Shown here piece by piece: positions 4,546-8,453 of a stretch of DNA of 64,000 nt. Source of the stretch: Bacteroides sp. (GTDB lineage Bacteria > Bacteroidota > Bacteroidia > Bacteroidales > Muribaculaceae); NCBI GenBank assembly GCA_014801945.1, contig JAAVDF010000025.1, positions 1 to 64,000 of the forward strand. Reading direction: 5' to 3'. The notes under the pieces were generated by a model. It did no database searches and was not told where the DNA came from. It worked only from the letters and a program-made list of their open reading frames with translations. The position numbers and the translations under genes were made by a program. Position 1 is the stretch's first letter; each line of letters opens with the position of its first letter.

Positions 4546-4670
4546 TGATGATTATAATTTTGTTCTGAATAAGTGACTATACAAAAATAACACATTCCGG
4601 CGTAAATTAGTGCACGGTTGCGTCAATATTTGTATTTTTGCATCAAAAATCAATCCAAATAAGTTTAATC

Positions 4671-6356
4671 ATGCTCACTACCGATAAGCTCTCCTGTAAT
4701 ATTCTTGCCGATCTGCTCGTGGCTCATGGAATAAATCGAGCCGTCCTTTCACCGGGAAGCCGTAACGCTCCTTTAGTGATCGCCCTCACGCGAAGGGAAA
4801 GCCTGCAGACTTCTGTGGTAATTGATGAGCGGTCGGCAGCTTTCATCGCGCTCGGAATGGCTATTCAGAGTGGTGAACCTGTCGCATTGGTGTGTACGAG
4901 CGGTACGGCATTGCTCAATTACGCGCCTGCTGTGGCCGAGGCTTTTTATCGTGGTGTGCCCCTGATTGTTATTTCGGCCGACAGGCCGGAAGAATGGATC
5001 GATCAGGATGATTCGCAGACAATCTGGCAGCAGAATGCACTTGCCCCATACGTTAAACGTAGCTGTGACATTCCGGCTCATACTGATTTCAGCAATGGAG
5101 AGTGGGTATGTAACCGACTCATCAACGACCTGTTGCTTGAGGCCGTCAACGGTAGGAAGGGGCCTGTCCATATTAACATTCGTCTGGATGCTCCGCTCAG
5201 CCGCGTCAACGAATTTCAGCCTGACTGCAGTCGTATTGTACGCATGGTATCACCTTCTGTCGAACTGCCTACTGCTGAAGCCAGAAGAATAGGAGCGACA
5301 ATAGCTTCTCCGCGAAAAGTCCTTATAATAGTTGGATTTCACGAACCCGACGAGAAGCTTAATCGTGCCCTTGCCAAACTTGCGGCTTTGCCTAATGTGG
5401 CGGTGATGACGGAGACCATAGCCAACCTTCACTCGCCCCTGTTTATCAGTCGTATTGATTCCACACTCTGCCGTCTTAAGGACGGTGAGCGTAGAGAGCT
5501 TGCCCCCGACGTTGTCATTACGGCGGGTGGGGCACTTGTCTCCCGTTTCGTAAAGGAGTGGATTCGTTCTCTCTCTGATGTTGAGCACTGGCATGTCGGT
5601 CTTTCGCATACGACCATTGATTGTTTCAAGCATCTCACGCTGCGCATCGAGATGCGTCCATCGGTATTCCTGCGCCAACTTGCTTCAGCACTTCAGATCT
5701 TCAAAGCTCAATCCGACTATGCTGCACGCTGGCGCAAGGTAATGGCTTATGCAGTGGAAGCGCATGATTCCTATATCACCGCCTCTCCGTGGTCAGACAT
5801 GAAAGCATTCTCCTTTATTATTCCTCACATTCCCCCTCGGTGGAATCTGCACCTTTCAAACGGTACACCCATACGCTATGCGCAACTTATGGATTGTTCA
5901 CGCATACACCGCTGTGACTGCAACCGGGGAGTCAGCGGTATTGACGGCTGTAGTTCTACCGCCTTGGGTGCATCCGTAGTCTATAAGGATACTACTTTGC
6001 TTATCACAGGCGACATGAGCTGTCAGTATGATCTCGCTGCTTTCTCGTCACAGCTTGTCAGCCCTAAGTTCAAGGTCATAGTCATCTGTAACGGTGGAGG
6101 AGGCATATTCCGTTTTATCTCATCGACATCATCACTTCCGGAACTGGAAGAATGCTTTGCTGTAGGCACACGTCTGCCTCTCCGACAGATAGCCGAGGGA
6201 TACGGCTTCGCCTATCATGAGGCTCATGATCTTGCCGGATTGCAACGTGAATTTAAGGACTTCGTCGCTGTGGATGATGCACCTGCCTTATTGGCCGTAT
6301 TTACTCCTGCAGAGGAATCGGCTGAAGTTTTGAAGCGATACTTTCAGCAGCAATAA
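4671..6356 (+). CDS. menD: 2-succinyl-5-enolpyruvyl-6-hydroxy-3-cyclohexene-1-carboxylate synthase
   Basis: LSPGSRNAPLVIAL, SADRPEEWIDQDDSQTIWQ, NGGGGIF motifs; ATG at 4671 preferred over the upstream TTG at 4638. Confidence 0.93.
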   Translation: MLTTDKLSCNILADLLVAHGINRAVLSPGSRNAPLVIALTRRESLQTSVVIDERSAAFIALGMAIQSGEPVALVCTSGTALLNYAPAVAEAFYRGVPLIVISADRPEEWIDQDDSQTIWQQNALAPYVKRSCDIPAHTDFSNGEWVCNRLINDLLLEAVNGRKGPVHINIRLDAPLSRVNEFQPDCSRIVRMVSPSVELPTAEARRIGATIASPRKVLIIVGFHEPDEKLNRALAKLAALPNVAVMTETIANLHSPLFISRIDSTLCRLKDGERRELAPDVVITAGGALVSRFVKEWIRSLSDVEHWHVGLSHTTIDCFKHLTLRIEMRPSVFLRQLASALQIFKAQSDYAARWRKVMAYAVEAHDSYITASPWSDMKAFSFIIPHIPPRWNLHLSNGTPIRYAQLMDCSRIHRCDCNRGVSGIDGCSSTALGASVVYKDTTLLITGDMSCQYDLAAFSSQLVSPKFKVIVICNGGGGIFRFISSTSSLPELEECFAVGTRLPLRQIAEGYGFAYHEAHDLAGLQREFKDFVAVDDAPALLAVFTPAEESAEVLKRYFQQQ

Positions 6357-7065
6357 GCGAATCAGGTTTCCCTATATCGATCCAGTTATAAGATGTATGC
6401 GGTATGAATCCTTTTATATATAAGGTGGAACATGAATCGGTGTAGAACGGAGTTATTGAAAATTTCGCTTCATTCGTATATTCTTCAAGGACTGCAAAAA
6501 TCTCAGGATTTACTATATGGACTCCACCGAAAGCCAATCGTCGTACGGGCATTGAATTGATATCAGTAAAGGGCGATCGGATCTCACCGGTCCTGATATT
6601 CTCCCAACCGACCATCCTCATGTCAGGATTAAAAAGCAGATAGCGAGAAGTCGGACGCTCACCCACAAGCAGAGTGATCTGCGCATCCGATTCAATATGA
6701 CTACGCAGCATTTCACTGATATCAAAATCTGTCAGGATGTCGGCATTATGAACCAGTATCGGTTCATCGCCCTGTAAAAATTCCCGTGCTTTCAGAAGGC
6801 CACCTCCTGTGTCAAGGAGACAATCGCTTTCATCGCTGATGATTATATTTACTCCGAAGTTGCTGTTTTCAGCAAGATAATTTCTGATGGCGTCGGCATG
6901 ATGATGGATATTCACCACCATATCCCTGATACCGGCAGATTTGAGTTTTAGGATGACACGTTTCAGCATCGGTTCTCCACCGACTTCAACGAGTGCTTTA
7001 GGTTTCCTACGGGTAATATCGCCGAGACGCGTTCCAAGTCCGGCGGCAAAGATCATAGCTTTCAT
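6301..7065 (-). CDS. Sugar-phosphate nucleotidyltransferase, MurU-like
   Basis: MKAMIFAAGLGTRLGDITRRKPKALVEVGG signature; overlaps the upstream kinase gene by 4 bp. Confidence 0.85.
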   Translation of the reverse strand: MKAMIFAAGLGTRLGDITRRKPKALVEVGGEPMLKRVILKLKSAGIRDMVVNIHHHADAIRNYLAENSNFGVNIIISDESDCLLDTGGGLLKAREFLQGDEPILVHNADILTDFDISEMLRSHIESDAQITLLVGERPTSRYLLFNPDMRMVGWENIRTGEIRSPFTDINSMPVRRLAFGGVHIVNPEIFAVLEEYTNEAKFSITPFYTDSCSTLYIKGFIPHTSYNWIDIGKPDSLIAAESIASKLQPIPLQE

Positions 7066-8453
7066 AGTGACTGATCTATATTCTGTTCACGGTGGATGAG
7101 ATGAACTTTGACGTGGGGATATTTGGCTTTGATATGCTCAGCCATTTTTTGCGCACCATAGACGCTGCGGTGTTGTCCCCCTGTACATCCGAAATTGACT
7201 GAAAGAGAGGTAAAACCGCGACGGTCATAACATTCGACCGACGGATCTACCAATCCATAACAATTCTCAAGAAAACGGATGATCTCACCACGGCTTTCAA
7301 GGAAATCTATAACCGGTCTGTCAAGACCAGTTCTCGGCTTATATTCATCGTAACGTCCGGGGTTTTCCATGCCACGGCAGTCAAAGACAAAACCACCGCC
7401 ATTGCCCGACATATCCTGCGGTATCCCTTTCTTATACGAGAAACTCATGACGGTTACGGTTAGTGAACTTTCATTCCGTCGCGTAGCAGACAGCAAAAGT
7501 TCGCTGGTTACCTTATTTATCATGCGTTCAAGTACTTCTGTCAAGTAGGGATATTCCGCAAAAGGTTCAGCTATTAAGGTTGAGAGATTACCGATAGCAA
7601 GCGGAATGCTTTTCAGGAAGTGGGGCTTGCGCTCGAATTTTCCTCTGAATCCGTAGGCCCCAAGCACTTGGAGATTACGGAGCAGTGAAAATTCACGAAG
7701 ACGCAGACTGAATTTTTCAGGATCAATATCCACGTATCTTGATGCGCTGCAGATGTAGGTCTGAGTCAGCTCCTCACGCAATTCCACCGGAAAACCGGCA
7801 CGGGCCTGAGTGATGAACGACACAAGATCGTATTCGGCCGGTCCGCGACGTCCTCCCTGAAAATCTATGAAATATGGCTGCCCATCCTTGATCATTACAT
7901 TGCGTGACTGGAAATCACGATACATGAATGAACCGGAGGGATTTGCTGAAAGGCGTACAGCCATTTTGCGGAAATCCTCCTCCAATCGCGGTTCGCTATA
8001 TGAAATACCGGTGGTGTTGAGAAAGCAATATTTGAAATAATTGAGATCCCAAAGGATGGCTTGGCTGTCAAATTCACTTACGGGATAGCATTTTGAAAAA
8101 TCCAATCCCTCAGCTCCGGCATACTGAAAATCCGGCAGCAGTGAAATTGTCTTTTTCAGCAGCTCTATCGAAGAGCGTTCGTCAAATAGCAAACGGTCAC
8201 CGAGATCTTCCTGCAAATAAGCCAATGAATCCTCACTGACTGCGAAGATCTCCGGGACAGGAAGTCCCTTGCTCCGGAAATGACGGGCAAGATAGATGAA
8301 TGCATCGTTCTCCTCCTTGCTGCAGCCAATAACACCTACAACTGTAGGACAGCCTTTAAGACGGAAATACTGCCGGTTGCTTCCTGCGGGAGTAAGCCGT
8401 TCGACTTCGGAAGGGGAGACCCCAAACTTTTTTTCGTATAGATCCTTTAGCAT
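7062..8453 (-). CDS. APH-fold (AmgK-like) sugar kinase fused to RapZ C-terminal domain
   Basis: N-terminal APH fold with MYRDFQSRNVMI and PYFIDFQ; C-terminal RapZ-like VFDCRGMENPG...TGLDRPVIDFL...NFGCTGGQHRSVY; ATG at 8453. Confidence 0.87.
   Translation of the reverse strand: MLKDLYEKKFGVSPSEVERLTPAGSNRQYFRLKGCPTVVGVIGCSKEENDAFIYLARHFRSKGLPVPEIFAVSEDSLAYLQEDLGDRLLFDERSSIELLKKTISLLPDFQYAGAEGLDFSKCYPVSEFDSQAILWDLNYFKYCFLNTTGISYSEPRLEEDFRKMAVRLSANPSGSFMYRDFQSRNVMIKDGQPYFIDFQGGRRGPAEYDLVSFITQARAGFPVELREELTQTYICSASRYVDIDPEKFSLRLREFSLLRNLQVLGAYGFRGKFERKPHFLKSIPLAIGNLSTLIAEPFAEYPYLTEVLERMINKVTSELLLSATRRNESSLTVTVMSFSYKKGIPQDMSGNGGGFVFDCRGMENPGRYDEYKPRTGLDRPVIDFLESRGEIIRFLENCYGLVDPSVECYDRRGFTSLSVNFGCTGGQHRSVYGAQKMAEHIKAKYPHVKVHLIHREQNIDQSL

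Follow-up and report, generated by a model that had tools for sequence, protein, structure and literature searches.

How does a sugar kinase come to carry, in the same polypeptide, a domain known from a protein of small-RNA control? This question is raised by a gene in a stretch of 64,000 nucleotides from Bacteroides sp. (Muribaculaceae; assembly GCA_014801945.1, contig JAAVDF010000025.1, positions 1 to 64,000 of the forward strand), the whole of which is called the window here. The gene (7062..8453, minus strand) encodes a protein of 463 amino acids, in which a kinase half resembling AmgK is followed by the C-terminal domain of RapZ (RapZ-C), and it overlaps a gene for a nucleotidyltransferase resembling MurU. 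The kinase, RapZ-C and the nucleotidyltransferase constitute a widespread module of the Bacteroidota, rather than an isolated fusion. The answer that we prefer, tentatively and with somewhat less than even confidence, is that this is an anabolic salvage module for N-acetylmuramic acid (MurNAc), in which the RapZ-C half would remove a 6-phosphate and thereby supply the AmgK-like kinase.

The fusion gene and its overlapping partner

The open reading frame (ORF) of the fusion starts with an ATG at 8453 and has its stop at 7062–7064. Homologous fusions are present in many other genomes at about 40–77% identity, the nearest named relative of the window being an uncultured Muribaculaceae metagenome-assembled genome (77% identity), and because of this recurrence the fusion is no artefact of chance or of assembly. 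The kinase half spans about residues 1–325 overall, within which the APH/AmgK-like kinase domain (residues 25–234; 7752..8381, minus strand) is matched by Pfam PF01636 (E 5e-12, 46.5 bits against a cut-off of 23.2); its best match among solved kinase structures is 3csv, both by sequence and by fold. The catalytic Asp, the Asn and the DFG-type Asp of the APH fold are all present in the catalytic loop RDFQSRN (R179–N185) and the IDFQ motif (I196–Q199), at 7857..7919 on the minus strand, and R179, D180, N185 and D197 are invariant in 37 fusions.

The RapZ-C domain (residues 331–457; 7083..7463, minus strand) is matched by Pfam PF22740 (E 2.8e-32, 111.9 bits against a cut-off of 27), and the N-terminal P-loop domain of RapZ (PF03668) has no match in the fusion ORF or in the whole genome. 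The AlphaFold models are confident, with a mean pLDDT of 92.6 for the fusion and 95.1 for the RapZ-C domain, and the RapZ-C model matches 5o5s with a TM-score of 0.92 on target length. A preliminary description of this DNA had read an APH-type kinase and RapZ-C in one ORF that lacks the RapZ ATPase, a reading which is borne out by two profile matches well over their cut-offs and by the missing third.

The adjoining gene (6301..7065, minus strand) overlaps the fusion gene by 4 bp (ATGA) and encodes a nucleotidyltransferase of 254 amino acids, identified by Pfam NTP_transferase (PF00483, E 2e-27). Its best NCBIfam model is MurU and its nearest solved relative is the MurU structure 4y7t (E 4e-24), in agreement with the overlapping MurU-like gene proposed earlier. 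The 3′ end of this gene overlaps a convergent menD-like ORF (4638-6356) by 56 bp (6301-6356), and scans for promoters and terminators gave no clear excess over shuffled sequence.

A widespread module in the Bacteroidota

In a survey sample of 396 Bacteroidota genomes, from which all co-occurrence counts were taken without correction for phylogeny, RapZ-C was found in 49. A search with the kinase alone gave strong matches (E 1e-42 or better) in a total of 50 genomes, comprising all 49 with RapZ-C and one more (G009), the only genome with a strong kinase match that lacks RapZ-C; the pairing is near-obligate. In most carriers RapZ-C is fused behind the kinase, and in another group it has a gene of its own, placed between those for the kinase and the nucleotidyltransferase. 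Three architectures are seen: the fusion followed by the nucleotidyltransferase, three-gene operons in the order kinase, RapZ-C, nucleotidyltransferase, and triple fusions in the same order as one ORF of 760–780 amino acids (L092:5992-8274; L121:5908-8250; L131:5989-8274), each domain of which is confirmed by Pfam. Of 80 named loci, at least 64 have the nucleotidyltransferase gene immediately after the fusion, mostly with a 4-bp overlap. The architecture survey proposed for this fusion places it as one form of a widespread module. A conserved wider neighbourhood was ruled out, as the nucleotidyltransferase alone recurs broadly.

In G180, G272, G307 and G332, RapZ-C and the kinase are unlinked and both have been kept, which is a good sign that the two act together. 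The unlinked RapZ-C gene of G307 and G272 (loci L037 and L041), which belong to one genus, shares a contig with AnmK, at a distance of about 10-16 kb, the kinase being elsewhere; this proximity is only a hint.

Neighbouring genes and the probable sugar

In one locus (L110), genes for SpoIID, an AmpG-like transporter of the major facilitator superfamily, the exo-N-acetylmuramidase NamZ, a GH18 protein, the fusion and the nucleotidyltransferase follow one another on one strand, and the gene orders of L095 and L112 are similar. A more distant kinase–nucleotidyltransferase pair without RapZ-C, in family f19, whose genomes are small, is followed by NamZ and a sodium:solute symporter. Such neighbours represent MurNAc-releasing and probable importing functions, and the operons with SpoIID, AmpG-like, NamZ and GH18 genes suggest that the module has a role in MurNAc salvage. 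A route by AmgK and MurU from MurNAc to UDP-MurNAc had already been proposed for Tannerella forsythia and other Bacteroidetes (PMC5790795, PMC7670621). The salvage role suggested in the preliminary description is well supported by homology, by these operons and by the replacement of MurQ that is described below.

Two arrangements show variations on this theme. In the f19 arrangement, at L148:4915-9510 and also in L149, L151 and L152, the AmgK-like kinase, MurU-like nucleotidyltransferase, NamZ and symporter stand in a row without RapZ-C (Pfam confirms NamZ in L148 and L152 and the symporter in L148), which looks like a complete operon for MurNAc import and salvage. L087:2499-7071 is rearranged, with the nucleotidyltransferase and an AmpG-like gene divergent from the fusion, behind which lies a BadF/NagK-type sugar kinase (a weak match), possibly MurK.

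The module in place of MurQ

AnmK produces MurNAc-6-phosphate, which normally meets one of two fates: cleavage by MurQ, or dephosphorylation by MupP and transfer to AmgK (PMC5371407). AnmK is present in 272 and MurQ in 279 of the 396 genomes. Where AnmK is present, MurQ accompanies it in 240 of the 241 genomes without RapZ-C, and in just 16 of the 31 genomes with RapZ-C. Stated conversely, 15 of the 16 genomes with AnmK and without MurQ (six families) carry the module (Fisher p 2.7e-15). Such a distribution would be predicted were the module to serve as the alternative outlet for MurNAc-6-phosphate.

MupP was set aside, as none of the 51 genomes tested had a match over the curated cut-off (NF009696), and many of the 15 carriers with AnmK and without MurQ, among them most genomes of family f6, lack a MupP match even at E 1e-12. 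RapZ-C, which according to Pfam is not a HAD domain, is the sole phosphate-loop candidate tied to the module. These two observations, the 15 carriers among 16 genomes and the lack of MupP over its cut-off, are among the grounds for proposing RapZ-C as a phosphatase. The kinase-positive genomes without RapZ-C that are visible in the AnmK comparison (G009 and family f19, which represent few independent lineages) also lack AnmK, as expected.

RapZ-C as a candidate sugar phosphatase

The phosphate loop of the fusion, C423-TGGQHR-S430 (7164..7187, minus strand), has the form C-x5-R-S, and has been kept as CTGG[QKR]HRS in all 49 RapZ-C domains of the survey and as CTGGxHRS in 79 of 79 named loci. 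In Escherichia coli RapZ, the loop binds sulphate or malonate together with His190, Thr248, Gly249, His252 and Arg253 (PMC5737377), and authors working on RapZ have likened the pocket to the loop found in Cys-dependent tyrosine phosphatases (PMC7199280). The exchanges C247A and C247S each abolish RapZ activity, the inactivation by C247S being called unexpected by the authors, and glucosamine-6-phosphate (GlcN-6-P) seems to be chemically transformed in the RapZ crystal (PMC9841335). Phosphatase activity has also been reported for the Bacillus subtilis homologue YvcJ (PMC7525490).

Four of the five pocket residues are kept in the Bacteroidota domains, the fifth, His190, being Gly in 49 of 49; in the fusion, this position lies in the NPGR motif (N364–R367; 7353..7364, minus strand), which aligns with N188-P189-H190-W191 of E. 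coli RapZ. Compared with RapZ sequences drawn from plasmid-collection records, the Bacteroidota domains have an NGGG insertion, Gly for His/Tyr190 and Arg/Lys for Trp/Tyr191. As MurNAc is bulkier than glucosamine and carries a carboxylate, a small residue at 190 and a positive charge at 191 could suit MurNAc-6-phosphate.

Judged from these features, the module may operate as follows. RapZ-C, a phosphate-loop domain that would not bind RNA here, would act on a sugar-6-phosphate, most probably MurNAc-6-phosphate, by stripping off its 6-phosphate, and would hand the free sugar to the kinase half, thereby doing the job that the unrelated HAD enzyme MupP does in Pseudomonas. The kinase half would phosphorylate MurNAc at C1, and the product of the overlapping gene would turn the resulting MurNAc-1-phosphate into UDP-MurNAc. 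The AmgK/MurU half of this scheme is supported, and the phosphatase step is one that we infer. A broader proposal, in which we place a little less trust, is that RapZ-C domains in general are sugar-6-phosphate phosphatases, that the Bacteroidota one replaced MupP and was fused to AmgK as a bifunctional MurNAc-6-phosphate phosphatase/anomeric kinase (with MurU added in the triple fusions), and that the sensor/RNA role in E. coli was derived from an old phosphatase.

Several points weigh against the phosphatase reading. The co-occurrence counts and the Fisher p value ignore phylogeny, and AnmK by itself is not associated with the module (31 of 49 against 241 of 347 genomes, p 0.41), which ruled out AnmK presence alone as a module marker. 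Fourteen carriers, including the source genome of the window, lack both AnmK and MurQ, and the source genome (an assembly 79% complete) has no match to AnmK, the MurK family, NamZ or AmpG. MupP-like HAD proteins under the cut-off are present in 30 of the 51 genomes. A Foldseek search with the RapZ-C domain matched only RapZ at E below 1 and no protein tyrosine phosphatase (PTP) fold; an overall similarity to that fold was thus ruled out, and the likeness to a phosphatase is local. The activity reported for YvcJ need not reside in its C-terminal domain (PMC7525490). Neither enzyme reaches its NCBIfam equivalog cut-off: the kinase scores 40 and 31.6 bits against AmgK cut-offs of 550 and 500, and the nucleotidyltransferase 129.7 bits against a MurU cut-off of 250. 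In view of such limits, the proteins are not filed as members of AmgK, MurU, RapZ or MupP; most likely, they work as an AmgK–MurU pair with an added sugar-phosphate domain.

A weak, partial match to MurQ in the source genome, within a frame of 619 amino acids, was set aside as probably an unrelated SIS-type protein. Stand-alone RapZ-C-like proteins without the N-terminal domain of RapZ are encoded by small actinobacterial plasmids (L142:2956-3498 and other matches in Streptomyces, Nocardiopsis and Planobispora), the Planobispora copy adjoining a NUDIX gene, and on a Desulfosarcina plasmid (L143:2067-2671) RapZ is annotated in two fragments, apparently as a broken copy.

Alternative explanations

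The main rival is that RapZ-C acts as a sensor, which would bind a hexosamine phosphate, such as GlcN-6-P, without turning it over and would switch the attached AmgK-like kinase on or off, so that salvage is matched to amino-sugar supply. Enzymes commonly gain allosteric control by fusion with a ligand-binding domain. We consider this possible, albeit rather unlikely: it retains its place because no source of MurNAc-6-phosphate was found in the source genome, it accounts for carriers lacking both AnmK and MurQ, and the C-terminal domain of E. coli RapZ does bind GlcN-6-P (PMC7073468). Hexosamine-phosphate allostery was a suggestion of the preliminary description. The conserved phosphate loop (CTGGxHR) speaks for it, whereas the ligand residue His190, which lines the RapZ pocket, has been replaced throughout. 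Furthermore, a pure sensor does not require the invariant Cys, leaves unexplained the near-constant presence of the module in genomes with AnmK and without MurQ, and is harder to reconcile with the RapZ-C genes that lie away from the kinase.

It is improbable that the module handles another sugar, either N-acetylglucosamine (GlcNAc) or a sugar of a surface glycan, and that UDP-MurNAc is not its product. NTP transferases readily change specificity, both enzymes score under their equivalog cut-offs, and the AmgK family of NCBIfam is named for GlcNAc too. However, the NamZ, AmpG-like and SpoIID neighbours, a MurU as the nearest solved relative of the nucleotidyltransferase, the replacement of MurQ and the MurNAc route put forward for Bacteroidetes including T. 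forsythia all speak for MurNAc.

A link between sugar recycling and small-RNA control, as in E. coli, which the preliminary description had also raised on the homology to RapZ, is very unlikely here: the positions of the RNA-contacting Lys170 and Arg184 are largely conserved, but R238 has become Phe/Trp, K194 is mostly Glu, K251 and H190 are changed, the basic C-terminal tail is missing, the domain is fused into a metabolic chain, and no GlmZ was found in the source genome, no Hfq in 13 of 13 carrier genomes tested and no Rfam match in the window. A Cys-dependent phosphatase, which that description did not consider, fits RapZ-C better.

Comparison with known systems

Within the literature collection searched, no paper names both AmgK and RapZ, and the sole paper with RapZ and Bacteroidetes is a review of RNA degradation. 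In public records from Bacteroides finegoldii and Parabacteroides distasonis (L132:7986-9416 and L133:7986-9416), the fusion is named “RNase adapter RapZ”. In these two annotated carriers, the label is misleading and hides a cell-wall salvage enzyme, and carriers include common gut Bacteroidota (Bacteroides, Phocaeicola, Parabacteroides). If RapZ-C is indeed a phosphatase, it would fill the missing step from AnmK to AmgK in genomes without MurQ, and would offer a direct way to probe the role of the conserved cysteine of RapZ.

The module resembles the AmgK–MurU–MupP system of Pseudomonas, in that the kinase gene is followed by a nucleotidyltransferase gene that overlaps or adjoins it and in that the pair is found in place of MurQ, and its two enzymes have 27% and 31% identity to an AmgK-like/MurU-like pair adjoining lptD in Legionella. 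It differs in that MupP over its cut-off is replaced by a fused or adjacent RapZ-C, and in its scores under the equivalog cut-offs. With RapZ and YvcJ it shares the C-terminal domain (168 residues aligned at 29% identity), the fold and the CTGGxHRS loop, but not the N-terminal P-loop ATPase or the RNA tail, and it has the NGGG insertion, Gly in place of His190 and a fused kinase. To Cys-dependent protein tyrosine phosphatases it is similar in the C-x5-R-S loop, a likeness noted earlier for RapZ (PMC7199280), and dissimilar in overall fold. With the MurTKQ/NamZ/AmpG salvage system of T. forsythia it shares the order Bacteroidales, the proximity of some fusions to AmpG-like, NamZ and SpoIID genes and a predicted AmgK/MurU route; the descriptions of that system consulted here make no mention of RapZ.

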